This document shows positions 15,990 to 41,317 of a stretch of 57,773 nucleotides of DNA, in pieces (the stretch's first letter is position 1; every line of letters starts with the position of its first letter). Source of the stretch: Steroidobacter sp. (GTDB lineage: Bacteria > Pseudomonadota > Gammaproteobacteria > Steroidobacterales > Steroidobacteraceae). Location of the stretch: contig JAICPY010000016.1 in NCBI GenBank assembly GCA_025929585.1, positions 1-57,773 on the forward strand. The letters are read 5' to 3'. Made by a program: the position numbers and the translations under genes. The notes under the pieces were generated by a model. The model was not told the origin of the DNA and did not search any database. It saw only the letters and a list, made by a program, of their open reading frames with translations.

Positions 15990-16009
15990 TACCAATGCAA
16001 TACCAATGC
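15990..16009. promoter_or_regulatory. Direct repeat TACCAATGC, candidate NagR site
   Basis: TACCAATGC occurs at 15990-15998 and 16001-16009, an 11-bp phase that places both on one face of the helix. It lies about 65 bp upstream of the regulator start. Together with the TTGGTAC and TATTGGT words at 16111-16137 it suggests that one repressor controls both divergent transcripts. Assignment to NagR is inference. Confidence 0.45.
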
Positions 16010-16110
16010 GGACCTCTTTGGTGCGTAGCAGAATCGTAAGCAGCTGTTCTGTTGCGAAAAATAGCTGGAGGAAATAAATGGTACGCAAGAGGCTAGCATT
16101 TCCCTGATAA

Positions 16111-16137
16111 TTGGTACTATAGTGGAACCATATTGGT
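16111..16137. promoter_or_regulatory. TTGGTAC/ACCA palindromic region, candidate NagR operator
   Basis: TTGGTAC at 16111 and GGAACCA ending at 16130 form an interrupted palindrome around ACTATAGT, immediately followed by TATTGGT (16131-16137). It sits about 35 bp before the start codon of the TonB receptor, where a repressor would block transcription. Confidence 0.45.
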
Positions 16138-16170
16138 CCGATCGCAAAAACACATACCGGGGAACGCGAT

Positions 16171-18918: not shown

Positions 18919-18932
18919 GTGCGAGTAGATTT

Positions 18933-18970
18933 AGCAGTGCCGGACGCAAGGCCGGCACTGCTATTTTTTT
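18933..18970 (+). terminator. Strong intrinsic terminator after the TonB receptor
   Basis: An 11-bp perfect stem (AGCAGTGCCGG with its complement), an 8-base loop and a run of seven T follow the receptor stop by 14 bp. It separates the highly expressed receptor from the downstream enzymes. Confidence 0.9.
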
Positions 18971-19042
18971 AGGGCTGGGCTTCCTAGCGCTGTGCCGTTT
19001 CATCATTTCTGCGTAGCGGGAAGCCATCCGAACGAAGATGGG

Positions 19043-19060
19043 TCCTCGCCTACGCGGGGA
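19043..19060. repeat. REP-like small hairpin
   Basis: TCCTCGC and GCGGGGA pair around a CTAC loop, within a GC-rich context resembling the extragenic palindromes common in soil proteobacteria. A single copy was noticed, so a family could not be confirmed here. Confidence 0.35.
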
Positions 19061-19118
19061 TTCCAGTAATCGGGGCCCTGCATTTTGGTGGCGACTCTTT
19101 CCTCGGTATAACACTTAG

Positions 19119-21251: not shown

Positions 21252-21260
21252 CGACCACGC

Positions 21261-23831
21261 ATGGCAAATTTGAAGCTCCTCGCTCCCCTCGAAGGCTGGT
21301 GCGCGCCGCTGGATGAAGTTCCCGATCCGGTATTTGCAGGACGAATGGTGGGTGAAGGGCTCGCTATCGACCCAACCGGGAACACACTGCACGCGCCATG
21401 CACGGGGGAGGTGCTCTCGATCGCAGCCGGAAAACACGCGATCGCGCTTCGTTCAGAAGAGGGCATTGACGTACTCATGCACGTTGGCATCGATACGGTT
21501 GGCTTGGCTGGCGAGGGATTCGAGCCTTTGACGACCGTGGGTGCGCATGTCTGCGCGGGCGATCCGCTGCTGCGCTTCGATCTGAACGTGCTTGCAGAGC
21601 GAGCAAAGAGTCTGATCACGCCGATCATCGTTACCAACGGCGATCAATTCGAAATCGAACAGTCCATTTCGAACCGCCTCATCAAGGTAGGCGATGACTT
21701 GCTGACGGTTCGATCGAAACCCAAGCAAGATGGCATTCAACGCAAGCCTTCTGAAGATCAAAGACCTTCTAAAGGTCAAAGAATAGAGAGGCTCAGTATC
21801 GCCCATGAACATGGTCTGCACGCTCGGCCCGCTGCATTGATTGCCAACCGCGCCAAGCATCTAGCAGCGGAGATCTGGATCGAGGCGCACGGACGATCGG
21901 CGAATGCGAGCAGCGCGGTTGCAATCATGGCGCTCGGCGTGCGTTGTGGCGATGAGATCACATTGATTGCCAGTGGCCCGGACGCTGCTGAAGCGTTGCA
22001 GGCGGTGAAAGAAACCATTCTCGCGATGCCGGTGCTTGCCGAACGCGCCAAGTCACCAGAGGTCTCGTCGGTTTCTGAGGCGTCTCGAGGCTCGGATCTC
22101 TCGCGCAGTTCGTCGCGAGTTCGCGAGCCGCATGACGGAAAACTGCGCGGCGTCATTGCTAGTCGTGGCTTCGCCGTCGGACGTGCAGTGAAGCTGCATC
22201 AGGTCGAGATTGCCGTGAACGAGCTTGGCAGCAGTATCGCGCACGAAAGCGCGGCATTGGATCGCGCACGCTCAGCCGTGCGCACGCGCTTGGAGGATTT
22301 GTCTGCGACTGCATCCGGCATTGCCTCCGACGTGATTGCCGCGCATCTCGAGTTTCTCGATGACAGCGAGCTCGTTGTACCTGCCAAGCGCGCAATTGCA
22401 CAAGGCAAGAGTGCGGCGTTTGCATGGCGGAAAGCTGTTCGAGACGTTGCTGAGAAGCTGCGGGCACTGAACGATGCTCGCATGACCGAACGTATCAGCG
22501 ATCTACTCGATTTAGAGACTCAAGTGTTGCAGGTGCTCAGCGGCGCGTCTGCTGCTCAGTGCGAATTACCGGAACGCGCAGTCGTGATCGCTGAAGATTT
22601 AAAGCCGTCGCAGTTAGTCTCGCTCGATGCGGAACGATTGAGTGCGATCTGTTTGGCCGCGGGCGGTCCTACATCCCACGTCGCATTGCTTGCTGCCTCG
22701 ATGGGAGTGCCTGCTTTGGTGGCGCTGGGCGATCACGTTTTGACTGTAAAGGAGGATGCGTGGCTGATCGTCGATGCAGAGCAAGGCACGCTGGATCTCG
22801 CGCCAGACGAGCAGACCATCGCGGCAGCCGAGGAGCTGCTCCAGCAGCGCGAACAGCGTAAGAACTCCGAGCGCGCAGCTGCACAGCAAGATTGCTTCAC
22901 TGCCGACGGCACGCGTATCGAGGTATTCGCTAATCTTGCCTCGCTTGCAGAGGCGAAGCTCGCTGCAACCAATGGAGCAGAAGGCTGTGGCCTGCTTCGA
23001 ACCGAATTTCTGTTTCTGGAGCGCGCATCGCCACCGGATGAACCGGAGCAGCTTCGCCAGTATCAAGATATCGCAATGGCTTTGAAAGGCCGTCCGCTCA
23101 TCATCCGTACATTGGATGTCGGCGGCGATAAGCCGATACCTTACTTACCGTTACCGGCTGAAGAGAATCCTGCTTTAGGACTGCGCGGCGTGCGCACGAG
23201 TCTGTGGCGTCCAGACCTGCTGCGTGTGCAGCTCAAGGCGATTCTGCGCGTTGAGCCCGCCGGGCAATGTCGCATTCTTCTGCCCATGGTCACCGATCCG
23301 GGTGAGATCCAGGCAGTGCGTCGCATGCTGGATGAGGTACGGCGCGAGCTGCGATACGAGGGATATATCGAGCTCGGCGCCATGATCGAGACACCGGCCT
23401 CGGCGTTGATCGCGAATCGCTTACTGCGCGATGTGGATTTCTTGTCGATCGGCACGAACGATCTCACGCAGTACACGCTTGCGATGGACCGTGGCCACAG
23501 CGAGCTCGCGCATCGCATCGATGGACTGCATCCGGCAGTGCTCTCTTTGATCTCGATTGCAGCCACGGCAGCACACCAGCAGAACAAGGTCGTTGCAGTC
23601 TGCGGTGGTCTTGCATCAGAGCCCGCCGCCGTACCGGTATTGATCGGCCTGGGGATTCAAGAGCTGTCGATCGTCCCGACGCTGATTCCTCGGATCAAGG
23701 CGAACATTCGCACATTGACGATCGAGTCCTGCCAGCGGCTTGCCCAGCGTGCTCTCGAGCAAGAAACGGCTGAACAAGTGCGGGCGCTGGTCAATGAGTT
23801 TGCCGAAGAGCAATCGAGGGTTACCTCATGA
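21261..23831 (+). CDS. PTS EIIA-HPr-EI fusion protein
   Basis: This 856-residue protein carries the soluble phosphotransferase chain in one polypeptide. Residues 1-150 are a glucose-type EIIA with phospho-acceptor His74 in VLMHVGIDTV and supporting His59. Residues about 172-260 are HPr with His187 in GLHARPAA. Residues about 295-856 are enzyme I with His473 in GGPTSHVALLA, PEP-binding RTEFLFLER and the C-terminal Cys of VAVCGGLASE. Phosphate passes from PEP through EI, HPr and EIIA to the EIIB domain of NagE, encoded next with a 4-bp overlap. The locus thus carries its own complete PTS. Confidence 0.95.
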   Translation: MANLKLLAPLEGWCAPLDEVPDPVFAGRMVGEGLAIDPTGNTLHAPCTGEVLSIAAGKHAIALRSEEGIDVLMHVGIDTVGLAGEGFEPLTTVGAHVCAGDPLLRFDLNVLAERAKSLITPIIVTNGDQFEIEQSISNRLIKVGDDLLTVRSKPKQDGIQRKPSEDQRPSKGQRIERLSIAHEHGLHARPAALIANRAKHLAAEIWIEAHGRSANASSAVAIMALGVRCGDEITLIASGPDAAEALQAVKETILAMPVLAERAKSPEVSSVSEASRGSDLSRSSSRVREPHDGKLRGVIASRGFAVGRAVKLHQVEIAVNELGSSIAHESAALDRARSAVRTRLEDLSATASGIASDVIAAHLEFLDDSELVVPAKRAIAQGKSAAFAWRKAVRDVAEKLRALNDARMTERISDLLDLETQVLQVLSGASAAQCELPERAVVIAEDLKPSQLVSLDAERLSAICLAAGGPTSHVALLAASMGVPALVALGDHVLTVKEDAWLIVDAEQGTLDLAPDEQTIAAAEELLQQREQRKNSERAAAQQDCFTADGTRIEVFANLASLAEAKLAATNGAEGCGLLRTEFLFLERASPPDEPEQLRQYQDIAMALKGRPLIIRTLDVGGDKPIPYLPLPAEENPALGLRGVRTSLWRPDLLRVQLKAILRVEPAGQCRILLPMVTDPGEIQAVRRMLDEVRRELRYEGYIELGAMIETPASALIANRLLRDVDFLSIGTNDLTQYTLAMDRGHSELAHRIDGLHPAVLSLISIAATAAHQQNKVVAVCGGLASEPAAVPVLIGLGIQELSIVPTLIPRIKANIRTLTIESCQRLAQRALEQETAEQVRALVNEFAEEQSRVTS

Positions 23832-25573
23832 AGAAGATCATCGCAAGTTTGCAGCCGATCGGCCGTGCTTTGATGCTGCCGATTGCGGTTCTGCCGGTCG
23901 CGGCCCTGCTGCTGCGAGTAGGGCAACCGGACTTGCTCGATATCGCTGCAATCGCTGCGGCAGGCGATGCAATCTTCTCGAATCTAGGACTGCTGTTCGC
24001 GATCGGTGTCGCCGTCGGTTTGGCCCGTGAGAATCATGGTGCTGCCGGGCTTGCGAGTGTCGTCGGATATCTGGTCGCAACCAAGGGCGCTGAGGTATTG
24101 ATCGGGGTTCCGCCGGAAGTAACGGCAAATGTCGCCGAGGGACTCAAGGAGCTTGCCGCCGCCGCATTTCGCGAGAAGGAGCTGGCGAAGCTCAGCGTGC
24201 CTGCGGGTTTGTTATCAGGCTTGATCGCTGGGGTGCTCTACAACCGCTTCAGCGACATTCGTTTGCCTAGCTATCTGGCGTTCTTCGGCGGTCGCCGATT
24301 CGTGCCCATCGCGAGCGGCTGCGCGGGCATCGTTCTCGCGCTGTGCTTCGGTTTTGGATGGCCGGTTCTCGAGCGTGGGATGGACGTCGGCAGCCAGACT
24401 GTTCTGGAGTCTGAATCCTTAGGACTCTTTGCTTATGGCGTGCTCAATCGCGTACTCATCGTCACCGGCCTTCATCACATCCTCAACAACATCGCCTGGT
24501 TCCTGCTCGGTGACTACAACGGTGTCACCGGCGATCTAAAGCGTTTCTTCGCAGGCGATCCAAGCGCCGGGGCCTTCATGTCCGGATTCTTTCCGATGAT
24601 GATGTTCGGGCTGCCCGCCGCGTGTCTTGCGATGTATCACACCGCTCAGCCGGAGAAGCGCAAAGCCGTCGGCGGAATGCTGTTCTCGATGGCGTTGACC
24701 TCGTTCTTGACCGGCGTCACGGAGCCGATCGAGTTCTCGTTCATGTTTCTTGCGCCGATGCTGTATGCGATTCATGCCGTTCTGACGGGCATTGCAATGG
24801 TAGGCATGCAAGCGCTCGGCGTGCATTTGGGTTTTGGTTTTTCGGCCGGGCTGTTCGACTACATATTGAATTACTCGCAGGCCACCCGTCCGTTGATGCT
24901 GATCCCCGTAGGACTGGGTTACTTCGCGCTGTACTACGGCTTGTTCCGTTACTTCATCCTTCGTTTCGACTTGAGGACCCTAGGCCGAGAGATCGAGGAG
25001 GGTGCGCCCGTGCCCGAGACCGCTGGCTCCGTTCCGGCCTTGAATTGGATCGGAGCGCTCGGCGGTGCTGAGAATCTGCGCGCGGTCGAGGCCTGCACGA
25101 CCCGACTGCGACTGGTTGTGTTAGATCCGGCACGACTCGACGAGAGAAGGCTGAAGTCACTCGGCGCACGAGGAGTTCTGAATATTGGAGAAGGCGGGAT
25201 CCAAGTCGTCGTCGGACCGATCGCGGATCAACTCGCATCCGACATTCGTGCGCAGATGCGAACGCCCACTACGAACGTTCAATCCCATGGGTCAATGGAC
25301 CATCAGGCATCGAAGTCACAGCCTGCGAACGTCTCTACAGAGTCGATCGCCGCGGTCCGTCGCGCGCTCGGCGGCAAGCAGAACATTCGAGAGATTCGTG
25401 AGCTGGGAAGCCGGCTTTGCGTGAAGGTCACGGATCCAGCGAGTGTCGATGAAGACGCGCTTGGAGCAACGGTTCGGGCCGTGGCGAGACCTTCAGCAGC
25501 AGACGTCCATCTCATCGTCGGCCCGGACGCGAACGGCTGGTCCGCAGCGTTTGCGGCTTATTCGAGCAGTTGA
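23828..25573 (+). CDS. nagE: PTS N-acetylglucosamine EIICB permease
   Basis: This 581-residue membrane protein imports GlcNAc across the inner membrane and phosphorylates it. EIIC spans residues about 1-375, with conserved segments TGLHHILNNIAW and GVTEPIEFSFMF. The first EIIB domain has phospho-acceptor Cys423 in EACTTRLRL. A second EIIB-like domain follows a linker (about residues 500-575); there the Cys position reads GSRLCVKV, so no Cys stands at the expected site. The protein lacks EIIA, which is supplied by the upstream fusion. The stop codon lies inside a heptamer-repeat hairpin. Confidence 0.93.
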   Translation: MKKIIASLQPIGRALMLPIAVLPVAALLLRVGQPDLLDIAAIAAAGDAIFSNLGLLFAIGVAVGLARENHGAAGLASVVGYLVATKGAEVLIGVPPEVTANVAEGLKELAAAAFREKELAKLSVPAGLLSGLIAGVLYNRFSDIRLPSYLAFFGGRRFVPIASGCAGIVLALCFGFGWPVLERGMDVGSQTVLESESLGLFAYGVLNRVLIVTGLHHILNNIAWFLLGDYNGVTGDLKRFFAGDPSAGAFMSGFFPMMMFGLPAACLAMYHTAQPEKRKAVGGMLFSMALTSFLTGVTEPIEFSFMFLAPMLYAIHAVLTGIAMVGMQALGVHLGFGFSAGLFDYILNYSQATRPLMLIPVGLGYFALYYGLFRYFILRFDLRTLGREIEEGAPVPETAGSVPALNWIGALGGAENLRAVEACTTRLRLVVLDPARLDERRLKSLGARGVLNIGEGGIQVVVGPIADQLASDIRAQMRTPTTNVQSHGSMDHQASKSQPANVSTESIAAVRRALGGKQNIREIRELGSRLCVKVTDPASVDEDALGATVRAVARPSAADVHLIVGPDANGWSAAFAAYSSS

Positions 25574-29935: not shown

Positions 29936-30499
29936 TTATTTGGACCCCGAAAACTTGTCCGTCCATTCCGAAAACGTTTGCAGAAATTGAAGGAGGAACG
30001 CTCGCGTGTCCTGGTTGGTAAGTTTGCCGTCCAGGTCGAACAGCGCGCCCGCGCTGTGAAGGTACGCTTCCGGATAGGTCATCGCGGAAAGGTTGACCGC
30101 ATACATGACCTGGCGCAGATGATGATTGGCGGCCATACCGCCCAGAGCACCGGGAGAGATACTGATCACCGCGGCCGGCTTGCCGCTCCACGCGCTTTGC
30201 CCCCAGGGCCTGGAGCCCACGTCGAGAGCGTTCTTCAGCGCACCTGGCATGCTGCGGTTGTATTCCGGCGTCACGAACAAGAGCCCCTCCGAACCCATCA
30301 CTTGCTGCCGGAAATGGGTCCAAGCTTCGGGCGGAGAAGTTGTCTCTAGATCTTGATTGTAGTGAGGTAGGGCGCCGATCTCGATTTCTCGAAGCGACAA
30401 CGAAGCGGGAGCGATCTCGTACAACGACTGCGCGAGCCAACGAGAGTACGCCCCTTTGCGCAGACTCCCAACGATTACTCCGATTGTTTTCGGTTTCAC
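29936..30499 (-). CDS. NADPH-dependent FMN reductase
   Basis: This 187-residue flavodoxin-fold protein has the FMN phosphate loop VGSLRKGAYSR, the LFVTPEYNRSMPGALKNALD motif of the NAD(P)H:FMN/azoreductase family, and ISISPGALGGMAANHHLR. It could supply reduced flavin or reduce a quinone-like intermediate. It is the last gene of the minus-strand catabolic operon, 9 bp after the hydrolase gene. No flavin-dependent monooxygenase is present in the operon, so its partner is unclear. Confidence 0.88.
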   Translation of the reverse strand: MKPKTIGVIVGSLRKGAYSRWLAQSLYEIAPASLSLREIEIGALPHYNQDLETTSPPEAWTHFRQQVMGSEGLLFVTPEYNRSMPGALKNALDVGSRPWGQSAWSGKPAAVISISPGALGGMAANHHLRQVMYAVNLSAMTYPEAYLHSAGALFDLDGKLTNQDTRAFLLQFLQTFSEWTDKFSGSK

Positions 30500-30508
30500 G
30501 ATCGCTCC

Positions 30509-31321
30509 TTAAGTTGATGCTCGTTCAGTCGCGGCATGTTGGTGCAGGAAACTGCGCAACGCGGCGTTGTAGTACGTCGGATTGTCGAGATTCGGAAGGT
30601 GGCCGGCATCTGGCACGATCGCATGGCACGCATCGGCAGAGAGTTCCACGATGCACGTGGCTGCGGCGAGGCGGGAGTCCGTGTCTTGTTCACCGTTGAT
30701 GACGAGCATCGGGATGTCCAGAGAGCGCCACTCAATCCTGGGGCTGACTTTCGCCTGCGTACTAAGCAAATCCTTACCCGGATATCGTTCGATAATCGTG
30801 CGCAGAATGGCGCGCATCGTTGGATCCTGAGTTTGCAGTTGCATCAACGCGTGCTGCTGCCACTCGCGTCGGAACGCTTCGGGGCCGAATCGACGAAGGA
30901 TGTCTCGATAGCGGTCCATTGGAATTTCGCTCGAGGTGTGTGTGTCCACGTCCGCAATCGCCGGAGGGCCGTCGAGAACCAAACACGAGGCGAGCTTTCG
31001 ATGCCGCTGCGCAAAATGCAGGACAACGCGCGCGCCTTGCGACATCCCAAGGAAACACGCTCGTTCGATGTCCAGCTCATCGAGAAGCGATCTAAGATCG
31101 GCGATGTCAGCATCGATGCCAGGCTCTCCCGAGGAAAGCCCGAAGCCGCGACGGTCGTATGTAATGAGGTGATAGTCGCGGGCGAGATCGGCTATTTGCG
31201 GCTCCCACATCTGAGCATCCAGCGCCCACCCATGAACTAAAACGACTGCGGGTCCCGCGCCACTTTCGCGCACCCGAAGCCGTGCGCCGTCGAGATCGAG
31301 GTAGCGCTCGCGGTCGCGCAT
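30509..31321 (-). CDS. Alpha/beta hydrolase, PcaD-like
   Basis: This 270-residue soluble hydrolase has the oxyanion HGW, nucleophile Ser94 in LGMSQGA, an acid in VINGEQDTDS and the catalytic His in PDAGHLPNL. The overall pattern is that of enol-lactone hydrolases and related C-C hydrolases of aromatic catabolism. It is embedded in the catabolic operon with 9-bp gaps on both sides. The substrate is not determinable from sequence. Confidence 0.85.
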   Translation of the reverse strand: MRDRERYLDLDGARLRVRESGAGPAVVLVHGWALDAQMWEPQIADLARDYHLITYDRRGFGLSSGEPGIDADIADLRSLLDELDIERACFLGMSQGARVVLHFAQRHRKLASCLVLDGPPAIADVDTHTSSEIPMDRYRDILRRFGPEAFRREWQQHALMQLQTQDPTMRAILRTIIERYPGKDLLSTQAKVSPRIEWRSLDIPMLVINGEQDTDSRLAAATCIVELSADACHAIVPDAGHLPNLDNPTYYNAALRSFLHQHAATERAST

Positions 31322-31330
31322 ACGAGGTGC

Positions 31331-32479
31331 TCAGTGCTTCCACAATCTCTTCGTTGCGATCTCTGCGCCTTCGGCCATTGCGTGAAGCTTCAGATAAGCA
31401 ACGTCGGGATCGACCGGTCCGAAGCCTGCGAAGGTGCCGAAGCCGCAATCACTTCCCGCCATGACTCGCTCGCGACCCACGACATCGGCATAGCGGCAGA
31501 TGCGCTCGGCGACCAGCAACGGGTGATCGACATAGTTGGAGGTCGATCCGATGACTCCAGGAATCAGGATCTTGTCGTCCGGAAGTTTCTGCTCGCGAAA
31601 CACCGCCCATTCGTGCGCATGACGTGGGTTCGCGCCTTCGATCAATAGTCCTTGCGCCTTGGTCTTGATGACAACGGGCAGCAATTCCTCGAGCGGAATA
31701 TCGTGATGATGCGGTCCTTCATAGTTTCCCCAACACACGTGCATGCGAACCGATTCCGACGGTACATTGCGCAATGCATGATTGAGCACTTCGATGTGCA
31801 CTGCGGCGCGGCGTAAGAATTCTTCCTTGCTCCGATCGCGATACATCGTGTGCCGACCCATGCCAAGGTCGGGTGCATCGATTTGCACGAGCAACCCGGA
31901 AGCGACGATCCCTTCGTACTCGAAGCGCATCGCTTCAGCGACTGCCTCCAGGTACGCATCTTCGGTCGCGTAGTATTCGTTTGGTTGAAATAGAGCGATG
32001 ACACCCGGTGAAGCCGCGTTGAGAAAACCTTCAGTCGCTGCAGAGCTCTCGATCGCAGCCCGCATGTTCTCGATATCGATATCCAGGGGCTTTCGGTCTT
32101 TGACCCCAATCTCGCGGACGCATTTCGGGCGCGTATATTTCGCGGTGGCGCCGGTATCGGCCAGCCGCTTCAAGATGCGAGGGAAGTCCACGAGATCTTG
32201 GCCGGGTTCACGCGGCGTATCTCCTTCGAAGCCCGTCAGTCTGTACTTGATGTAAGTGGCGTAGCTGATCTTGCTCATCTCGCCATCGCTCACGATGTCG
32301 ACTCCGGCCTCTCGCTGTCGCCGCACGACATCCGCGACCGCGTTGCGCATCGTCGTGTTTGCGGCGTTCTCATCCGAGACTTCATTTCTTTCGCGTGCAA
32401 ACAGGACGTCCGTCACTACTTGCGAGCGAGGCAAGCTGCCGACGTGCGTAACGAGGATTCGATCTTTGCTGTACTTCAC
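31331..32479 (-). CDS. MetE-like (cobalamin-independent methionine synthase II) protein
   Basis: This 382-residue barrel protein matches the C-terminal half of MetE. THVGSLPRS marks the N-terminus. A complete zinc site is visible: His247-x-Cys249 in MHVCWGN, a Glu in LIEGANPRHAHE and a Cys in GSDCGFGTF. Family members of this size occur outside methionine synthesis, often in catabolic operons, and their reactions are mostly unknown; methyl transfer to or from a thiol is possible. A GTG at 32479, 19 bp after the VOC gene, is the likely start, though its ribosome binding site is weak; longer starts would overlap the VOC gene. Confidence 0.8.
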   Translation of the reverse strand: MKYSKDRILVTHVGSLPRSQVVTDVLFARERNEVSDENAANTTMRNAVADVVRRQREAGVDIVSDGEMSKISYATYIKYRLTGFEGDTPREPGQDLVDFPRILKRLADTGATAKYTRPKCVREIGVKDRKPLDIDIENMRAAIESSAATEGFLNAASPGVIALFQPNEYYATEDAYLEAVAEAMRFEYEGIVASGLLVQIDAPDLGMGRHTMYRDRSKEEFLRRAAVHIEVLNHALRNVPSESVRMHVCWGNYEGPHHHDIPLEELLPVVIKTKAQGLLIEGANPRHAHEWAVFREQKLPDDKILIPGVIGSTSNYVDHPLLVAERICRYADVVGRERVMAGSDCGFGTFAGFGPVDPDVAYLKLHAMAEGAEIATKRLWKH

Positions 32480-32498
32480 TTCGGCACCGACAGTTGCA

Positions 32499-33035
32499 TC
32501 AGCGAAACATATTGTTCGAAGTGCGATCGCCTGCGAGCCAGCGTTTGAGCTCCGAGTGCGCATCCGATCGTCGCTTCGCATTGATTTGGTCGGCATCCGG
32601 ATGATCGACCGTGAACTCCACGATCATACCGTCGGGATCCACGGCGTAGACCGAACGGCAATAGCCGTGCTCCAGCACGTACATCCTCGGTTCTTGGTAG
32701 CCCGCAGCGCGCAAGCGTTGCTCGATGCCTTTCTGCGCTTCTTGGTCGACTTTCAACGCGACATGATGGAAGGGCGTATCAGGCATTTTCGGCCCGAACA
32801 ATTCCTGATCCTCCGGCCGTGCGAACTGAAAGAACGCGAGCGCTCCGCCATCGGCGAGTCCGAAGAAGACGTGACAGTAGGTACGCTCGGCACCGAACAA
32901 CATATCCGACTCGCACCAGGTGGCGAGCAAAGGTAAGCCGATGACATCTTCGTAAAATTGACGCGTCGCTTCGAGATTCTTCGACACGTACGCGGTGTGA
33001 TGTAGCCGCTCTGGGATCTTGGGGGCACTGGCCAT
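32499..33035 (-). CDS. VOC-superfamily (glyoxalase/extradiol dioxygenase-like) protein
   Basis: This 178-residue protein has two beta-alpha-beta-beta-beta modules, with HHTAYVSKNLEATRQFYEDV at the start of the first and FHHVALKV at the start of the second. Candidate metal ligands are His (HHTAY), His (FHHVAL) and Glu in DGMIVEFTVD. This fits a metal-dependent lyase or dioxygenase. The ATG at 33035 is preceded by AGGAG at the right distance; the longer frame to 33158 overlaps the receptor gene. It follows the TonB receptor by 17 bp. Confidence 0.85.
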   Translation of the reverse strand: MASAPKIPERLHHTAYVSKNLEATRQFYEDVIGLPLLATWCESDMLFGAERTYCHVFFGLADGGALAFFQFARPEDQELFGPKMPDTPFHHVALKVDQEAQKGIEQRLRAAGYQEPRMYVLEHGYCRSVYAVDPDGMIVEFTVDHPDADQINAKRRSDAHSELKRWLAGDRTSNNMFR

Positions 33036-33052
33036 GATTGTTACTCCTACAT

Positions 33053-35251
33053 TTAGAAGCGATACGCGAGATCGACACCCCATCGTCTCGGCAGCGCTTT
33101 GAACACGAAGTTGTTGGTGTATCCGGGATTCGGGAAGAACTGCGGACCGGGCGACCATTCCGCGTTGTATTCCTCATCGGTGGCATTCTTGATCCAAACC
33201 GTCGCCGACCAGGAATCGTTTTCGATGCCGGCGCGCAGGTTTATCAGCTCCAGCGGATCTCGTTCGGTGACGTTATCAGGATAGAACCAAGTCGGACCGA
33301 TCGCCTCGATGTCGGCGCGCACGAAGCCGCTCAGACCCTGCGCCGCGGCGAGATCGCGCCGATACTGCAACCCGAGATTCACGCTGTATTCCGAAACGAG
33401 CGGCGCTTGATTGCCGACGTCGATCGGATCGCGGTCCGATTCTTTGATCTCGCTATCCGTGTAGCCGATGCCGAGGTAGGCGTCGAACCCTTCCGCTAGT
33501 AATGCGCGGAACTCGAGCTCGAATCCTTGATAGTCGACACGGCCGAGATTGCCTAGATTCTGGGTGCTCGTGTTCGGGTCAAAGACGAAGAAGTAGGAGC
33601 CTTCGGCGCGCGTGTAGTACAAGTTGAGGTTGGCGGTGAGCCTGCGATTGAGGAACTCGGCCTTCGCGCCCGCTTCGTACGTATCCGCAGTCTCTTCATC
33701 GAATAGGTCATCTACGCCAGCGATGCCAGCCGCACCGACGCCTGTTTGATTGAAGCCGCCGCTCCTGAACCCGCGGCTATAACCCACATACAGCATCGAC
33801 TCTTCGCTCGGCTTGTAGCGCAGCGTGACCTTAGGTTGAAGCTCATCCCAACTTTCGGTGCGTACTTGGCCGGGAAACGCACTTCCGACCAACGGTGCCG
33901 GAATGAACTCCGCCGGTGTTTCGGTGGTGTTCTCGCGCTCATCCTCGTCGTAGCGAAGCGCGAATGCCGCTTCCAATTTTTCCGTTAGATCCACTTCCAA
34001 GTCCGCAAAGACGGCCCATGCAAAGTTGTCCTGTGAGTCGGCCAGGTAAGTGAACTGAGGATTGAACAGCGGTAATGGCGTGCGGCGCACTTCGGGAACC
34101 ACTCCGGTCCCTAAGTCGAAGACATTGCCGGTGGAGATGAAGCGATCCGTTTGGATGGCATACGCGCCGACAATCCATCGCACGGCGCTTTCGGAAGGCG
34201 AGGTGTAGCGAATTTCTTGGCTGATCGCTTCAACGTCGAGGAATTGATGCTGCGCCTGATCCGCGCCGAAGAATTGAAACAGCACCGATTCGGGAATCGG
34301 CAAGAAATCGAATTGGTCGCCGGTGAGAATCTCCTCGAGTGTGTCGTATGCCGTGATCGAGGTCAGCGTACCTGCGCCGACCCCGATGTCGAGTTTGACG
34401 GAGGCACCCACCATATCGCGCTCGTTGTTACCCGCGTTGTTGACTCGCACGGGTAAGCTGGTGTCGTTCACATCTTCGGTGATGTTGAAGTACAAGGCTT
34501 GAGTGTCGACCTGCGATATATAGAAGCGCATATCGGCACTCACGGAATCGGAAGCATCCCAAACCGCACGCACTCGCGCGGACAGATCCTTGTAGGGGTC
34601 CGCTTCTTCACCTAGCAGCGCGTTATCTATATAGCCCTCGGTATCGAGGTACGAAACATTCGCGCGATAGCGCAAATCCTCCGTGATGGGGCCACTCACG
34701 CTTGCTCGCGCTCGATAACCGGGCCCTGAGTCATAGCCCACCATCAAATTGCTCTCGAATTCGGAGGTCGGTGCCTTGGTGTTGATGATGATCGCACCGC
34801 CGATCGCGTTGCGTCCGTAAAGCGCGCCTTGAGGGCCTTTGAGAACTTCGATGCTCTCTATGTCGACGAGCTCTTGATTGAACTGCGATGGATTCGCCAT
34901 CGCCACGCCGTCGATGAGCACCGCCACGGAAGGTTCGCTGTTGCGCGCCTGTGAAATGCCGCGAACGGTGATAAATGAGGTGCCTTGGTTTTGCGTCTGC
35001 ACCAAGCTGATGTTCGGAGTGAGCCCGATAAAATCCTCTGGACGCTCGATGCCGGCGGCGGCAATGTCCTCGGCGGTGAATACGTTGATCGCGACCGGAA
35101 CGTCGAGCGAAGACTCATCGCGCTTGCGCGCCGTAACGATGACTTCTTCCAGGCCAGCAAAGCCTTCAGCCTGTGCGCTAACGTGCTGCGGAGTCGTGCA
35201 CAGCAGCGCAGCGGCGCTGGCCAGGACGTATCGCCCTGTCTTGATGCTCAT
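33053..35251 (-). CDS. TonB-dependent receptor of the catabolic operon
   Basis: This 732-residue outer-membrane receptor has a signal peptide ending near HVSAQA, a TonB box LEEVIVTARKR, a plug with LKGPQGALYGRNAIGGAI and a barrel ending in RRWGVDLAYRF. The ITVRGISQARNSEPSVAVLIDG segment marks the family of receptors common in sphingomonad and gammaproteobacterial degraders. Sitting inside the operon, it probably brings in the operon's substrate, which should therefore be too large or too scarce for porin diffusion (inference). Confidence 0.92.
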   Translation of the reverse strand: MSIKTGRYVLASAAALLCTTPQHVSAQAEGFAGLEEVIVTARKRDESSLDVPVAINVFTAEDIAAAGIERPEDFIGLTPNISLVQTQNQGTSFITVRGISQARNSEPSVAVLIDGVAMANPSQFNQELVDIESIEVLKGPQGALYGRNAIGGAIIINTKAPTSEFESNLMVGYDSGPGYRARASVSGPITEDLRYRANVSYLDTEGYIDNALLGEEADPYKDLSARVRAVWDASDSVSADMRFYISQVDTQALYFNITEDVNDTSLPVRVNNAGNNERDMVGASVKLDIGVGAGTLTSITAYDTLEEILTGDQFDFLPIPESVLFQFFGADQAQHQFLDVEAISQEIRYTSPSESAVRWIVGAYAIQTDRFISTGNVFDLGTGVVPEVRRTPLPLFNPQFTYLADSQDNFAWAVFADLEVDLTEKLEAAFALRYDEDERENTTETPAEFIPAPLVGSAFPGQVRTESWDELQPKVTLRYKPSEESMLYVGYSRGFRSGGFNQTGVGAAGIAGVDDLFDEETADTYEAGAKAEFLNRRLTANLNLYYTRAEGSYFFVFDPNTSTQNLGNLGRVDYQGFELEFRALLAEGFDAYLGIGYTDSEIKESDRDPIDVGNQAPLVSEYSVNLGLQYRRDLAAAQGLSGFVRADIEAIGPTWFYPDNVTERDPLELINLRAGIENDSWSATVWIKNATDEEYNAEWSPGPQFFPNPGYTNNFVFKALPRRWGVDLAYRF

Positions 35252-35288
35252 ACGAGTTTCCCCTCACTTTCAAGTTATCGCCTAGTCC

Positions 35289-36488
35289 TCACGCGGATGT
35301 CGAGCCAGTCAATTTGTTGGATTGCGTTTGTTGGAGTGGGTCCGCACCCGGCCAGTCAGCTCCTTCATTCATTGCGGTGCGAATCGCGAGGCCGTGCTCA
35401 TCGAGTAGCGGCGCGGTTCGCACTGCTTCAGCGTGTTTGCTGTCGAAGCGAACCGCGGGTCGCACGGCGTGTCGCCCCTCATGCGCCGACTCCACGGGCA
35501 CGATCAAGTCCAGGTGCTTGACCTGCGGATCGTTGACGACTTGATCGATTCGATTGATCGGCGCAAATGGCACGTCGTTGGCGTTCAACCGATCGGCCCA
35601 GTGCGCCATGGGATGTCGGCAGAACAGTGCATCGAGCTCGGCGCCCAGCGCTTCGAAGTGTTCGATTCGGCCTTGCCGCGTGCTGAAGCGTTCGTCCGCG
35701 GCGAGCGCAGCGGATTCCAGAGCACTCGTCAGGCCGCGCCAGAACTTTTCCAGAGACGATAAGTGGATCGCGATCAAACCATCATCAGCAGTGCGCAGAA
35801 TGTAGGCTTGCGCGAGACGGGGGCGGTCGCTGGATTTCGGTATTTGATTCAGCGCAAAGAATGCTGCGAACGGCTCGACGGCGAAATGTGCCATCGCTTC
35901 GAGCATCGAAACCTCGACCAAGCGTCCTCGTTGTGTGCGTGTGCGCTCGAACAATGCGCCTAATACGCCATAGGCCGCATAGATGCCGGTGATGGCATCG
36001 GCAAGTGCCGGTCCGAGAAAGCGAGGTCGATCCGGATCCACGACGACACTCAAGAATCCACTGAGCGCCTGTGCAACGGAGTCATAGCTGGGGCGATCGA
36101 CGTAAGGTCCGCTCGATCCGAATCCGCTGATAGAGCAGTAGATCAGTTGCGGATTCAGTTGCTGCAGCCGCTGCGCACCTGCGCCCAGACGCTCAGCGGT
36201 GCCAGGTCGAAAGTTCTGAATGTAGATATCCGCACTCGCAACGAGTCGATCGAACATCTGTCGATCGCCCGCCGCATTCATATCGAGCACGATGCTGCGT
36301 TTGTTGCGGTTGTACGCTTGAAAGTGCGGTGAGAACTGACCGCCCTGATAACTGCGATAAGGATCACCGCTGGGACTCTCGACCTTGATCACATCGGCGC
36401 CCAGATCGGCCAACATCATTCCGGTGCAAGGTCCGGTAATGAAGGTCCCTTGCTCGACGATGCGGATTCCGGAGAGCACCGAGTTCAT
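35289..36488 (-). CDS. Family III (CaiB/BaiF) CoA-transferase
   Basis: This 399-residue protein has the family III hallmarks: RIVEQGTFITGPCTGMMLAD near the N-terminus, DVIKVESPSGDPYR, the NRNKRSIVLDM segment and a likely catalytic Asp in GPALADAITGIYAAYG. Such enzymes move CoA between carboxylic acids, forming a thioester with the operon's substrate or an intermediate. Its ATG overlaps the stop of the citrate-synthase-like gene (ATGA), so the two proteins are made together and probably act in sequence. Confidence 0.9.
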   Translation of the reverse strand: MNSVLSGIRIVEQGTFITGPCTGMMLADLGADVIKVESPSGDPYRSYQGGQFSPHFQAYNRNKRSIVLDMNAAGDRQMFDRLVASADIYIQNFRPGTAERLGAGAQRLQQLNPQLIYCSISGFGSSGPYVDRPSYDSVAQALSGFLSVVVDPDRPRFLGPALADAITGIYAAYGVLGALFERTRTQRGRLVEVSMLEAMAHFAVEPFAAFFALNQIPKSSDRPRLAQAYILRTADDGLIAIHLSSLEKFWRGLTSALESAALAADERFSTRQGRIEHFEALGAELDALFCRHPMAHWADRLNANDVPFAPINRIDQVVNDPQVKHLDLIVPVESAHEGRHAVRPAVRFDSKHAEAVRTAPLLDEHGLAIRTAMNEGADWPGADPLQQTQSNKLTGSTSA

Positions 36489-37303
36489 GGTTCGCTCCGG
36501 GATGTTGTCGCGCTGTAGCCAGGTGGAACCGCGCCGTCATAGTCGATTGCCTGCGCGCCTGCATGCGATAGCACGAAGCCCACGGGACGGTGCTGTTCTT
36601 CGAGCAGGTGGCCGACCAAACTTGCCGTGCGTGCGAGGATTGGCACGCCTTTCAGCGCGAGCAGTGGATAGCCTGCATCGAGCAGCACGGCCGCGATGGC
36701 ACCGGAGACATTCAACGCGAGAGGTTTGCCGATGATCTGTGGGATGACACCCTGAACCTCGAGCACCGCGTCTACATGGGATCCGCGCGTCCCACATTCT
36801 TCGGCAATCTCGATGAGCTTTTTTGCTCTCGGATCGAAGTCCTTATGCAATGGATGGCCAAAACCCGGCACGGGGCGACGCCCGCTGCGATGCTCTTGCA
36901 CGACTTGGATAGAAGCATCATGAAGCGCTGCCGTGCTCGATCGTTCGACGACGTCATGGAGTAAATGACCGGCCGTCTCGGCGGCGCCGAGGATGACGGA
37001 CCCACAGCCGAGAATGCCGGCTGCGACGGCGCCTTGCAGCGCCTCCGGCGCGGCAGCCAACGTCATGCGACTGGCTTGAACGCTGGGTACTAAGCCGTGC
37101 TCCGCGATCGCGACCAGGGTTGCATCCAACATTCGCCGCTGCGAATCGTTCGGCAACGAACCCGCTACGAGTAGCCAAGCTAAATCCGTGAAGGTTGCTT
37201 TGCCTATCAGCTCGGCACACAGATCGAAGCCGCGCACGACGATCGTTTGTTCGTTCGAGCACGAGATCGCCGAGGAGCGAAACGCTTGCGAGCCGATCTT
37301 CAT
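36485..37303 (-). CDS. Citrate-synthase-superfamily protein, citryl-CoA-lyase-like
   Basis: This 272-residue protein is much shorter than citrate synthase (about 430) and fits the short citryl-CoA-lyase-like group. PGFGHPLHKDFDPRAKKL carries a conserved His150. Where citrate synthase has its first catalytic His the sequence reads ALQGAVAAG, with Gln90, and where the Asp is expected it reads LNVSGAIAA, with Ser200. Paired with a CoA-transferase it may cleave a citryl-CoA-type thioester into acetyl-CoA and an oxo acid. It is the first gene of the catabolic operon, and the ATG at 37303 follows the operator region. Confidence 0.75.
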   Translation of the reverse strand: MKIGSQAFRSSAISCSNEQTIVVRGFDLCAELIGKATFTDLAWLLVAGSLPNDSQRRMLDATLVAIAEHGLVPSVQASRMTLAAAPEALQGAVAAGILGCGSVILGAAETAGHLLHDVVERSSTAALHDASIQVVQEHRSGRRPVPGFGHPLHKDFDPRAKKLIEIAEECGTRGSHVDAVLEVQGVIPQIIGKPLALNVSGAIAAVLLDAGYPLLALKGVPILARTASLVGHLLEEQHRPVGFVLSHAGAQAIDYDGAVPPGYSATTSRSEP

Positions 37304-37337
37304 CGTCCAGATACCCCCTCGTTTCCGGCTGTGGTAT

Positions 37338-37354
37338 TTTTCGCATAGCGAAAA
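37338..37354. promoter_or_regulatory. IclR operator-like palindrome 1
   Basis: TTTTCGC-ATA-GCGAAAA is a perfect 7-bp inverted repeat with a 3-bp centre. It lies 35 bp upstream of the start of the catabolic operon. Confidence 0.6.
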
Positions 37355-37357
37355 TAC

Positions 37358-37372
37358 ATTCGTATTGCGAAT
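37358..37372. promoter_or_regulatory. IclR operator-like palindrome 2
   Basis: ATTCG-TATTG-CGAAT is a 5-bp inverted repeat placed 20 bp (centre to centre near 19) after palindrome 1, a spacing that would allow cooperative binding. Confidence 0.5.
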
Positions 37373-37429
37373 AATCGTGAGCCTCAAGCCCGTACAGTGT
37401 CAAGCCGGTGCCTACGAGGGTCTTTCCTT

Positions 37430-37444
37430 TTTCGGATAGCGAAA
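37430..37444. promoter_or_regulatory. IclR operator-like palindrome 3
   Basis: TTTCGGATAGCGAAA closely matches palindrome 1 (TTTCGCATAGCGAAA). It ends 12 bp before the IclR start codon, a position suited to autorepression. Confidence 0.6.
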
Positions 37445-37456
37445 TAAAGTAAGCGG

Positions 37457-38263
37457 ATGAAACGCAACAATGCAGAGCCCAGACGCGAAGCGATGGGCGG
37501 ACTCGCGAAGGGATTGGATGTGATCCGCGCGCTTTCGCAGGGTGCGCCCTCGTTGACGTTGAGCGAGATCGCGAGCCGCAGCAATTTGTCTGCTGCGACC
37601 GCGCGTCGATGCCTGCTCACACTCGCGGAGCTCGGGTATGTCATGCAGTCAGGACGCAACTTCCTCTTGCGTCCGAAAGTGCTGGAGCTCGGCGCCGCGT
37701 ATCTGGAGTCGATGAACGTCGAGACACTCACGAAGACCTATCTCGAAGATCTAGCGAGTCAAACAGGCGATTCAGCTGCGCTCACCGTGCTCGATGGCAC
37801 CGAGGTGGTGTACATCGCACGCGCGTCCGCGCGTACGTTGCTGCGTCTAGAGGCGCATGTTGGCAGTCGCTTTCCGGCTTACGCGACATCGACAGGCCGC
37901 GTATTGCTTGCGGGGTTGTCTTCCGAACGACTGCAGCAGTATTGGCAAGCTGCAAACATCGTTCCGCTCACTGATCAAACCGTCACCGACACGATCAAGT
38001 TGAGCAAACTCGTGGATGAATGTCGGCGCGTAGGTTACTCGGCCGTCGAAGACGAGTTGGCTTATGGAGTAGTCGCTGTTGCCGTTCCGGTATTCGACCA
38101 AGCCCGCCGTATCGTCGCAGCCCTCAACAGCTCGAGTCATTCGAAGCGAACCACGAAATCAAAGCTCATTCGCGAGCGAGTGCCAAAGCTCAGAGCAATT
38201 AGTGCGCAGATATCGCAAGAGTTGAGTCGCGTCCCAGGGCTTTCTTTGAGTGCACAAAATTAG
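37457..38263 (+). CDS. IclR-family regulator, PcaR-like
   Basis: This 268-residue protein has an N-terminal winged helix (LTLSEIASRSNLSAATARRC) and an IclR effector domain with ALTVLDGTEVVYIARASA, FPAYATSTGRVLLAGL and ELAYGVVAVAVPVFD. The pattern is closest to the PcaR/PobR subgroup that controls beta-ketoadipate and other aromatic pathways. It is divergent from the seven-gene operon, and three similar palindromes lie between them. It probably regulates the operon and itself in response to a pathway intermediate. Confidence 0.88.
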   Translation: MKRNNAEPRREAMGGLAKGLDVIRALSQGAPSLTLSEIASRSNLSAATARRCLLTLAELGYVMQSGRNFLLRPKVLELGAAYLESMNVETLTKTYLEDLASQTGDSAALTVLDGTEVVYIARASARTLLRLEAHVGSRFPAYATSTGRVLLAGLSSERLQQYWQAANIVPLTDQTVTDTIKLSKLVDECRRVGYSAVEDELAYGVVAVAVPVFDQARRIVAALNSSSHSKRTTKSKLIRERVPKLRAISAQISQELSRVPGLSLSAQN

Positions 38264-38266
38264 GGT

Positions 38267-38371
38267 GGGGACGCTCCTCGCACTCGAGGAGTGTCGCCAC
38301 TACCACCGGAGTTCTGCACAGGGGACACTCCTCGAGAACGAGGAGCGTCCCCTAAGACGAGGAGCGTCCCC
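38267..38371. repeat. Cluster of GGGGACACTCCTCG-family inverted repeats
   Basis: Two forward 14-bp units (38267, 38321) and three inverted units (38285, 38339, 38358) form two adjacent hairpins with 4-base loops plus one extra arm. It begins 3 bp after the IclR stop and ends 66 bp before the GH115 start. Related to the perfect palindrome at 29881-29925. Confidence 0.85.
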
Positions 38372-38437
38372 GCGCTGTTTGTCACTCGCATCCTCAGCTG
38401 CCACACTGACATCTTTTACACAGGCATTGAGACGCTT

Positions 38438-41317
38438 ATGAATCGAGCGCGCACTTACTTGGTCGCATGGTTGCCGATTTTGGCGTGCCTGATGTGCAGC
38501 GCCGCGTATGCAGGATTCGGCGAGACGTCTTACGTTGGTTTCAAGGGAGAGTCGCGTGCGGCAGCTGTTTATGCCGAAGGTCGCGCCACCTCGTTATGGT
38601 TGGATCCCGGCGATCATGCCGGTGTCCTTCGCGCCGCGCGCGATGTTCAGGCGGACATAGAGCGCGTGACCGGCGCTCGCCCGCAACTCGCGACTGAGAA
38701 ACCCGATGCGAATGTGTTGATCATTGCCGGCACGATCGGCAACAGCGTGCCGATCGATGACTTGATATCGCGCGGCAAACTCGAGGTCGACGACGTACGT
38801 GGTAAATGGGAATCCTTTGTGGTCGAGGTCGTCGATCGACCTGTAGCCGGTGTCGATCGAGCCATCGTTATCGCAGGCAGTGATAGGCGCGGCACGATTT
38901 ATGGTCTGTACGACTTGTCGACTCAAATGGGTGTTTCGCCTTGGTACTGGTGGGCGGATGTGCCGACGGTGCGGCGTGATGCGGTGTTCGTTAGACATGG
39001 CCGCTATGTGGTCGGCGAGCCGGTAGTGAAATATCGCGGCATCTTTCTCAACGACGAGGCACCCGCGTTGAGCGGCTGGGCGCGCGAGAAATTCGGCGGC
39101 TTCAATCACGAGTTCTACGCTCATGTGTTCGAGCTGATCCTGCGCCTGCGTGGTAATTATCTGTGGCCGGCAATGTGGGGTAGCGCGTTCAACGATGACG
39201 ATCCGCGTAACGCGCCGTTGGCACACGAGTACGGAATCGTGATGGGTACTTCGCATCATGAGCCGTTGATGCGCGCGCATGCCGAATGGCGCCGCCACGG
39301 TCGGGGGCCGTGGAACTACGCGACCAACGCCGAAGCGCTGCAACAGTTCTGGCGTAGCAGCGTCGAGCGCACGCGTGATTTCGAAAACATCATGTCCATC
39401 GGCATGCGTGGCGATGGCGATGAAGCAATGTCCGAAGAGACAAATGTCGCTCTGCTAGAGAAGATCGTCGCGGACCAACGCACCATCCTCAGCGAGGTGC
39501 TGGATCGTCCGCCGCAGAAAATTCCTCAGCTCTGGGCCCTCTACAAGGAAGTGCAGGACTATTACGAGCGAGGGATGCGAGTGCCGGATGACGTGACGTT
39601 GCTCTGGTGCGATGACAATTGGGGAAATATCCGCCGCCTGCCTACTCCTGCCGAGCGGGATCGGCCGGGCGGTGCGGGTGTGTACTATCACTTCGACTAC
39701 GTCGGCGGTCCGCGCAACTATAAGTGGATCAACACGGTGCCGATTACGAAGATTCAAGAGCAAATGAATCTTGCATGGCAGTACGGCGCGAACCGTATCT
39801 GGATCGTGAATGTCGGTGATTTGAAGCCGATGGAATTCCCGATCGAGTTCTTCTTGACGATGGCTTGGAATCCGGCGCGCCTGTCTTACGATCAGATCGA
39901 TCGGTATTCACGCACCTGGGCGGCCCGCGAGTTCGGCGCCACCCACGCAGAAGAGATCGCCTCGCTGATCAACGGCTATACAAAACTGAACTCGTTGCGA
40001 AAGCCCGAGATGCTCGCGCCGGACACCTTTTCTTTAACCAACTATGAGGAAGCGCAGAGAATCCTCGAGCAATGGCGCGACCTCGCCGATCGGGCGACGC
40101 GTCTCAAGCCACAACTCTCCGCGGACGCGCAAGATGCATTCTTTCAGCTCGTTCTATATCCAGTGACGGCGAGCGCCGCTGTTCAGGAGATGTATGTCGC
40201 CGTCGGTCGCAATCGCCTCTATGGGTTGCAAGGCAGAACCGATGCGGCTGTGGAAGCACAACGGGCTCGCGACTGGTTTGCAGCGGACGAACGCCTGGCG
40301 CGCGAGTATCACGAGATGAATGGTGGTCGATGGAACCACATGATGGCTCAGATCAACATCGGCTATACCTATTGGCAGCAGCCTGAGCTCGAAGTGATGC
40401 CGCCTATCAGTGAAGTGCATCCGCGTCGTGGAGCGGCGCCCGCAATGGCAATCGAGGGTAGCGATGTAGCGTGGCCTTCGTACGGTGCGAAACCTGCAAC
40501 GCTGCCGCCTCTAGATGCGATGACGCGCGGCACGCGATGGATCGAGTTGTTCAATCGTGGCGGAGCGCCTTATGAGTACAAGATCAGCTCGAGTAGCACT
40601 TGGCTCGGCATCGATAAACCGTCAGGTGCGATCGCTAAAACCGTGCGCGTTACTTTCGATGTCGACTGGAATGCCGCGCCGAGCGGCACTTCCTCCGCGA
40701 CTATCGATATCCAGACCAGCACGGGCGAAAAGCTGGCCGTACAGTTGCCGATCGACAATCCTGCGAATCGTCCACCGCGCGGCTTCAAAGGCTTCATCGA
40801 GAGCGACCGCGTGATCGCGATCGACGCGCCTCTTTACACGCGAGCCATCGATGAACGTGACGCCCGCTGGAAGACGCTGCCCGACTTCGGTCGAACGCTC
40901 GGCGGCGTGACGATTTATCCTGTGACGGCGGCAACTCGCGTACTAGGCGGCAAAACGGCCCGGCTCGAATATGACCTGTTCCTGACATCGGCTGGGGAGG
41001 TGAAGGTCGAATTGCATTGCGCGCCATCGTTGGACTTTCAGTCCGGCGATGGCTTGCGGATCGCCGTGTCGTTCGACGATGCGAAGCCGCAAATCGTCAA
41101 GCTCGACACTTGGTCATCGCCGAATTGGGAGCGGGCCGTCGCTGAAGGCATTCGACGCGTCACATCCGCTCACACAATCGCCCTGCCCGGCAAGCACACA
41201 TTGAAAATTTGGATGGTAACGCCGGGTGTCGTGCTCGAGAGGATCGTGATCGACGCCGGAGGTCTGCGTCCTAGCTATCTCGGGCCGCCGCAAAGCGTTG
41301 CGCACGATTCGCGGTGA
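38438..41317 (+). CDS. GH115 xylan alpha-glucuronidase
   Basis: This 959-residue secreted enzyme has a signal peptide ending near CSAAYA. The family 115 body includes VLIIAGTIGNSVPIDDLI, RGTIYGLYDLSTQMGVSPWY, KYRGIFLNDEAPALSGWA, NYLWPAMWGSAFNDDD and IGMRGDGDEAM. Such enzymes remove 4-O-methyl-glucuronic acid from xylan. The C-terminal 250 residues form the beta-sandwich region typical of the full-length family. The start at 38438 is chosen because an upstream in-frame ATG at 38291 would translate the repeat cluster. No other xylan gene is adjacent, so it is an isolated hemicellulase. Confidence 0.92.
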   Translation: MNRARTYLVAWLPILACLMCSAAYAGFGETSYVGFKGESRAAAVYAEGRATSLWLDPGDHAGVLRAARDVQADIERVTGARPQLATEKPDANVLIIAGTIGNSVPIDDLISRGKLEVDDVRGKWESFVVEVVDRPVAGVDRAIVIAGSDRRGTIYGLYDLSTQMGVSPWYWWADVPTVRRDAVFVRHGRYVVGEPVVKYRGIFLNDEAPALSGWAREKFGGFNHEFYAHVFELILRLRGNYLWPAMWGSAFNDDDPRNAPLAHEYGIVMGTSHHEPLMRAHAEWRRHGRGPWNYATNAEALQQFWRSSVERTRDFENIMSIGMRGDGDEAMSEETNVALLEKIVADQRTILSEVLDRPPQKIPQLWALYKEVQDYYERGMRVPDDVTLLWCDDNWGNIRRLPTPAERDRPGGAGVYYHFDYVGGPRNYKWINTVPITKIQEQMNLAWQYGANRIWIVNVGDLKPMEFPIEFFLTMAWNPARLSYDQIDRYSRTWAAREFGATHAEEIASLINGYTKLNSLRKPEMLAPDTFSLTNYEEAQRILEQWRDLADRATRLKPQLSADAQDAFFQLVLYPVTASAAVQEMYVAVGRNRLYGLQGRTDAAVEAQRARDWFAADERLAREYHEMNGGRWNHMMAQINIGYTYWQQPELEVMPPISEVHPRRGAAPAMAIEGSDVAWPSYGAKPATLPPLDAMTRGTRWIELFNRGGAPYEYKISSSSTWLGIDKPSGAIAKTVRVTFDVDWNAAPSGTSSATIDIQTSTGEKLAVQLPIDNPANRPPRGFKGFIESDRVIAIDAPLYTRAIDERDARWKTLPDFGRTLGGVTIYPVTAATRVLGGKTARLEYDLFLTSAGEVKVELHCAPSLDFQSGDGLRIAVSFDDAKPQIVKLDTWSSPNWERAVAEGIRRVTSAHTIALPGKHTLKIWMVTPGVVLERIVIDAGGLRPSYLGPPQSVAHDSR

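Follow-up and report, generated by a model that had tools for sequence, protein, structure and literature searches.

The stretch of DNA considered here (57,773 nucleotides from Steroidobacter sp., hereafter the window) belongs to a genome assembly (G000) of 5.13 Mb in 297 contigs and carries, on the minus strand between positions 29936 and 37303, seven codirectional genes next to a divergent gene for an IclR-family regulator (37457..38263, plus strand; PF01614 and PF09339). Counted from the gene nearest the regulator, the seven encode a citryl-CoA-lyase-like protein of the citrate synthase fold (CCL; 36485..37303), a family III (CaiB) CoA-transferase (35289..36488), a TonB-dependent receptor (33053..35251; PF00593 and PF07715), a VOC protein that is probably a ring-cleavage dioxygenase (32499..33035), a MetE-like zinc protein, probably a methyltransferase or demethylase (MetE-A; 31331..32479; PF01717, GTG start), an alpha/beta hydrolase (30509..31321; PF00561, with 93.5 bits against the PcaD-like profile TIGR02427, below its cut-off of 255.85) and an NADPH-dependent FMN reductase, possibly a quinone reductase (29936..30499; PF03358). 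The CoA-transferase belongs to family III by a full-length match to PF02515 (residues 5-365, 354 bits), and its gene overlaps the CCL gene by 4 bp; the genes that follow are separated by 37, 17, 19, 9 and 9 bp, the start codons having been refined by comparison with orthologues. The initial annotation had described seven genes with no gap longer than 37 bp under a PcaR-like IclR regulator, an arrangement borne out by the open reading frames and by profile searches of the window, in which all eight (8/8) were found in place and in the expected families. The GC content along the window is even (0.55-0.61 in 2-kb steps).

The conservation of the gene set, which the initial annotation had proposed as a check, was examined, and the set is indeed conserved: all eight genes occur in identical order in Peristeroidobacter soli (L030/L047), the same order is found in Steroidobacter gossypii (L031/L046) with only the FMN reductase absent, and related clusters are present in other Proteobacteria and in one Polyangiaceae assembly. 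A scan anchored on the VOC protein, with six orthologues run against named genomes, returned 320 relatives; among the best 80 of these, retained as loci, the CoA-transferase, the CCL and the TonB receptor were each found in 50, MetE-A in 44, the IclR regulator in 38, the hydrolase in 30, a second MetE-like protein (MetE-B) in 27 and a quinone or FMN reductase in 26, while of the 58 loci with enough flanking sequence 43 hold the CCL and 43 the CoA-transferase. Since a VOC-based search carries a bias, the loci were anchored a second time on the CCL: from 45 matches, 37 family loci were used (at least 54% identity, the window included), seven at 37-41% identity were kept as a separate group and one fragment was excluded, and 11 of the 15 phylum matches outside the window genome were fetched, four at 38-41% identity being left out. 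The 37 family loci all contain the CoA-transferase, together with the IclR regulator in 28, the TonB receptor in 28, a quinone or FMN reductase in 21, MetE-A in 21, MetE-B in 25 (any MetE in 31), and, as ring-cleavage genes, a VOC gene in 25, an intradiol dioxygenase in 11 and a LigB-type dioxygenase in one; the seven without any ring-cleavage gene are on contigs ending inside or just past the TonB receptor or CoA-transferase gene. The CoA-transferase recurs in 10 of the 11 phylum loci, with a VOC gene in six and any ring-cleavage gene in nine; the seven loci with the more distant CCL have neither CoA-transferase nor VOC gene (0 each), and one has LigB. As controls, twenty stretches elsewhere in these genomes were scanned at coordinates picked by the analyst; they contained no VOC, LigB, intradiol, MetE or CCL gene, with the CoA-transferase in one, a TonB receptor in two and LeuC/LeuD in one. 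All these scans used crude gene calls and reference proteins taken partly from the same neighbourhoods, the remaining partners being judged by eye, and several loci were fetched under two names (for example the two pairs above, L032/L050, L033/L059 and L049/L182). The seven-gene unit is a real and widely conserved catabolic operon; a literature search of open-licence papers, by titles, term counts and the starts of abstracts, yielded no paper recognised as describing this gene set.

The region between the IclR and CCL genes contains three 15-bp palindromes, which are putative operators: TTTCGCATAGCGAAA (37339..37353), ATTCGTATTGCGAAT (37358..37372) and TTTCGGATAGCGAAA (37430..37444). Genome-wide, TTTCGNATAGCGAAA has two exact copies, both in this region, and three further sites with one mismatch; its reversed control pattern has no site in the genome. 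An exact TTTCGN5CGAAA occurs in 26 of the 27 divergent promoter regions of orthologous loci (39 copies against 0.035 expected from first-order resampling; of the 37 loci, the nine that lacked an IclR match and the non-divergent L199 were excluded). As to the regulator itself, the label PcaR-like given by the initial annotation is justified as a resemblance and not as a family membership: the protein scores 263.5 bits against TIGR02431 (PcaR/PcaU/PobR), below the cut-off of 284.75. We infer that it binds TTTCGN5CGAAA, its putative operator. A wider IclR regulon, for which three one-mismatch sites lie elsewhere in the genome, was considered and dropped; promoter and terminator scans gave no higher yield than shuffled sequences.

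The assignment of the VOC protein to ring cleavage comes from its structural relatives and, above all, from the genes that take its place. Its AlphaFold2 model (49 sequences, pLDDT 91) has as top structure match 9u42 (E 1e-12), which is also the best sequence match among solved chains; the activity of 9u42, a VOC-type homogentisate 1,2-dioxygenase from Acinetobacter, is taken from the title of the entry alone, no paper on it having been found, and the sequence library lists its chain under the name Glyoxalase. The two proteins share a His-His-Glu triad and a near-C-terminal His and Tyr, with an identity of 26%. In the VOC family His13, His91, His123, Tyr130 and Glu140 are invariant (49/49); by analogy, we take His13, His91 and Glu140 to be the metal triad. 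A conserved His and Tyr before the Glu are features of the PROSITE pattern PS00082, for whose text no paper was found; at the first position of this pattern the window protein has Leu. In sister clusters a LigB-type dioxygenase is found in place of the VOC protein beside the CCL and CoA-transferase (L135, L136 and L149, including Aminobacter and Sinorhizobium), or an intradiol dioxygenase replaces it (L140, L146, L150, L152 and L167-L171, including Burkholderia glumae and Cupriavidus necator), identities confirmed by Pfam for representatives; the LigB-type proteins have a small companion, for which no family match was obtained. This exchange is the main reason for calling the VOC protein a ring-cleavage enzyme, and the case for a ring-cleavage dioxygenase, and for reading the operon accordingly as a ring-cleavage one, is moderately strong as far as comparative data go. 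PcpA, the 2,6-dichlorohydroquinone 1,2-dioxygenase, likewise cleaves a hydroquinone ring and occurs near MetE-A in four loci (L168, L170, L171 and L040); it has about 320 residues against the 178 of the window protein, and no PcpA-type dioxygenase was detected in the best 80 of the 320 VOC loci.

The relationship to 9u42 could also be taken to mean that the operon encodes a homogentisate- or gentisate-like pathway without any methoxyl group, in which the VOC protein would cleave an alkyl-substituted hydroquinone, the resulting alkylmaleate-type acid would be hydrated, transferred to CoA and cleaved, and the MetE-like protein would be an accessory. Besides the title of 9u42, this proposal can draw on VOC genes that adjoin a fumarylacetoacetase-family gene (in L067 and on a Paraburkholderia plasmid) and on LeuC-like genes in four CCL loci (L140, L146, L153 and L154), which suggest that a maleate-type acid may be handled in related routes. 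In L067 and L142 the VOC relatives adjoin a fumarylacetoacetase-family gene and a polysaccharide-deacetylase-like gene, with neither CCL nor CoA-transferase. Against it, L067 and the Paraburkholderia plasmid have no match or annotation for either the CCL or the CoA-transferase, and MetE-type genes, in 31 of the 37 family CCL loci, are too frequent for an accessory role; we regard it as quite improbable. Elsewhere in the source genome (G000:C21:25329-26614), a LigB-like match of 325.7 bits, under the gallate-dioxygenase cut-off, contains several in-frame stops and adjoins a LigA-like match.

The name of the citrate-synthase-fold protein deserves some caution. By profile it belongs to the citryl-CoA lyase subfamily (NF004868, PRK06224.1-5; 313 bits against a cut-off of 193), and it has in common with the Hydrogenobacter-type citryl-CoA lyase 6hxp both the fold and the overall sequence (E 4e-36). 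The catalytic residues of citrate synthases are His274, His320 and Asp375 in the pig numbering; in the window protein the corresponding positions are occupied by Ile, His and Ser; of the two 6hxp motifs, HGGA has lost its His here and NVD its Asp. The same holds for its 85 relatives: all 86 sequences of at least 45% identity (the comparison covers matches longer than 200 residues) have Val or Ile, His, and Ser or Asn at these sites, with one Arg also kept in all, and 10 of 10 weaker relatives likewise lack the two catalytic residues. The citryl-CoA lyase reaction thus cannot be assumed, the label of the initial annotation fails as a statement of activity, and "citryl-CoA lyase" is, to judge from these residues, a name of descent and not a tested function. 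An alkylcitrate substrate, prompted by the name, was dropped for the same lack of catalytic residues. In the portions available of a paper on Cupriavidus metallidurans, citryl-CoA lyase is mentioned once, as not encoded (PMC2864759). These residues also bear on the proposal that the substrate is not aromatic at all (a polyketide, an alkylcitrate or similar), with the VOC protein working as an isomerase or in the manner of a glyoxalase, and the CCL acting on a citrate-like CoA ester: the NCBIfam name of the CCL subfamily and the glyoxalase and Fos proteins ranking next to 9u42 among the structure matches are consistent with it, but the replacement of the His and Asp throughout the family and the exchange of the VOC protein for ring-cleavage dioxygenases in sister clusters argue against it and make it very unlikely.

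The FMN reductase has among its solved relatives 3u7r, chromate reductases and azo/quinone reductases, and many orthologous clusters have instead WrbA, an NAD(P)H:quinone oxidoreductase (NCBIfam, 292 bits against a cut-off of 132.5 for one representative), so that a role as quinone reductase fits; the initial annotation had assigned the FMN reductase no function in its route. As a specific marker of the cluster the gene was rejected, since 329 plasmid records match it.

MetE-A has the fold of the catalytic half of cobalamin-independent methionine synthase, its top structure matches including zinc- and homocysteine-bound ones; the identity to solved relatives is 16-18%, and the zinc ligands His247, Cys249, Glu281 and Cys345 are invariant (40/40). 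In having no folate domain it resembles, according to the part of the source available, the folate-independent core methionine synthases MesA-D (PMC7857596). Unlike methionine synthases, MetE-A sits in catabolic clusters, and the window genome encodes a complete MetH, so that MetE-A is not needed for methionine and its interpretation as a methionine-synthesis gene was dropped; the profile of MesX (PF08908), the partner protein in the MesD family, has no match in this genome nor in the control genomes, and no close MetE-B is present (best 30%). Its neighbours point to O-demethylation. A relative in Novosphingobium is accompanied by the syringate O-demethylase DesA (850 bits, cut-off 800), MetF, PurU and LigAB; LigM-like genes occur near MetE-A in L043, L051, L106 (with a gallate-dioxygenase-like gene; here the match to LigM runs off the contig and reaches 498 bits, the cut-off being 580) and L132; and L060 combines a VOC gene, MetE-B and DesA (841 bits). 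In L168, L170 and L171, MetE-A is part of a supercluster with a PcpA-type hydroquinone dioxygenase, maleylacetate reductase, PcaF, CCL, the CaiB CoA-transferase and a further CoA-transferase, an intradiol dioxygenase and MetE-B; in L168 the hydroquinone dioxygenase matches 4huz (E 1e-115) and the maleylacetate reductase 3w5s (E 2e-124), and both also lie beside MetE-A in L040. A Rhodococcus cluster with CCL (39%), CoA-transferase (35%) and VOC protein (60%) has no MetE match, and its Rieske oxygenase has a LigXa C-terminal domain. The O-demethylases LigM and DesA (folate-dependent) and those of the LigX type (Rieske) have the role proposed for MetE-A and are found beside it or, for the LigXa type, where MetE is missing; they belong to unrelated protein families, and MetE-A would need neither folate nor O2. 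The window genome itself has LigM (731 bits, cut-off 580). On this comparison, it is plausible that MetE-A demethylates a methoxylated substrate. On a plasmid of the haloarchaeon Halobellus limi (L133), a MetE-like gene comes after a run of five that carry the annotation ester cyclase.

Epoxyalkane:coenzyme M transferase, from the same superfamily as the MetE-like proteins, adds or removes a thiol on an electrophile, and a comparable chemistry may be imagined here: within an aromatic ring-cleavage operon, the zinc thiolate of MetE-A would add or remove a thiol on a quinone or enone, with no demethylation. The conserved zinc ligands agree with this, WrbA or the FMN reductase hint at quinone chemistry, and MetE-A also occurs in clusters without recognised methoxyl chemistry; yet DesA and LigM recur near MetE-A and a LigXa-type protein substitutes for it in Rhodococcus, so that thiol chemistry appears unlikely.

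On the comparative evidence we put at about even chances that the operon as a whole encodes a self-contained pathway under local regulation, in which a methoxylated hydroquinone or benzoquinone is broken down with the help of a MetE-type demethylase; as a guess, the substrate might be a lignin- or lignan-derived methoxy- or dimethoxy-hydroquinone. If a hydroquinone were cut beside a methoxyl group, a methyl ester would result, and a second methoxyl group would turn into a vinylogous methyl ester, from which a zinc thiolate could plausibly accept the methyl group; such chemistry would find a task, one after the other, for the hydrolase, MetE-A, the CoA-transferase and the CCL. The compound would be imported by the TonB receptor and held in the hydroquinone form by the FMN reductase; the VOC protein would cut the ring beside a hydroxyl, as homogentisate dioxygenase does; the alpha/beta hydrolase would remove the methyl ester or enol lactone arising from the cut; MetE-A would transfer the methyl group of the activated methyl ether (the vinylogous ester) to a zinc-bound thiol, for example homocysteine; the CoA-transferase would activate the open-chain acid, and the citrate-synthase-fold protein would split the product into acetyl-CoA and a C4 acid, the whole being controlled by the PcaR-like regulator on TTTCGN5CGAAA. 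Substrate and reactions alike are proposals based on gene families, conservation and active-site residues, and the order of the steps too is inferred: to judge from the clusters that combine an intradiol dioxygenase with MetE-B (L167-L171), the methyl group may be removed before the ring is cleaved. By analogy, methoxyhydroquinone is a plausible substrate; indeed, in the accessible part of one report, a hydroquinone dioxygenase of another family accepts it, with a rate that is 59% of that for hydroquinone (PMC3222310), and the consulted text of another has pinoresinol funnelled, in two other strains, to methoxyhydroquinone and protocatechuate (PMC12607616). The initial annotation had proposed import, demethylation, ring cleavage by the VOC protein, hydrolysis, CoA activation and C-C cleavage of a methylated plant or lichen compound: this route is favoured by the match to 9u42, the dioxygenase swaps and the O-demethylase neighbours, save that the lyase reaction cannot be assumed, and nothing found points to lichen compounds.

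Several observations weigh against this pathway. After 9u42, the structure matches of the VOC protein are glyoxalase and Fos proteins at 3e-8 and weaker, and L-DOPA dioxygenase ranks 44; a VOC gene coexists with an intradiol dioxygenase in six of the 37 family loci and with LigB in one, so that the VOC protein may not be the sole or main ring-cleaving enzyme; 15 of the 58 VOC loci with enough flank hold neither CCL nor CoA-transferase; and two of the 11 phylum loci have no ring-cleavage gene of the reference set. The best NCBIfam match of the Rhodococcus Rieske protein is a sterol oxygenase, far under the cut-off. No aromatic gene was recognised in nine of the 83 MetE-A loci (a number that does not count independent loci, given the duplicate fetches and since most were reached via the VOC protein or the CCL): in L026, L027, L035-L039, L045 and L134, MetE-A relatives of about 55-63% identity lie in another recurrent type of cluster, with HisD-like, HpaI-aldolase-like or SnoaL-like genes, to which cupin, SDR and LacI genes are often added; this speaks against a role confined to aromatics. 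The weakest step is the final cleavage, assigned to a CCL-like protein without two of its catalytic residues.

As to the surroundings of the operon, a GH115 glycoside hydrolase gene (38291-41317) begins 27 bp past the IclR gene on the same strand, and positions 14156-25573 of the window hold sugar phosphotransferase system genes (a fused EIIA-HPr-EI and an EIICB), a SIS-domain protein and a TonB receptor, an ensemble that looks like amino-sugar uptake.

A broader proposal, possible and at present rather doubtful, is that zinc enzymes of the MetE fold are a further class of O-demethylases, requiring neither O2 nor folate nor corrinoid, which would demethylate methoxylated hydroquinones, or the compounds that arise from them by ring opening, and pass the methyl groups directly to homocysteine. 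They would act within a widespread ring-fission route whose final C-C cut falls to an enzyme of the citrate synthase fold in which the customary catalytic Asp and His are missing. A single operon with a single conserved promoter motif makes these ideas easy to test. If they are true, the aerobic breakdown of lignin-derived aromatics would gain a kind of O-demethylase not recognised so far and a new route for the later steps, the common annotation "citryl-CoA lyase" would be corrected, and a clue would be gained to the methyl donors of the folate-independent methionine synthases.

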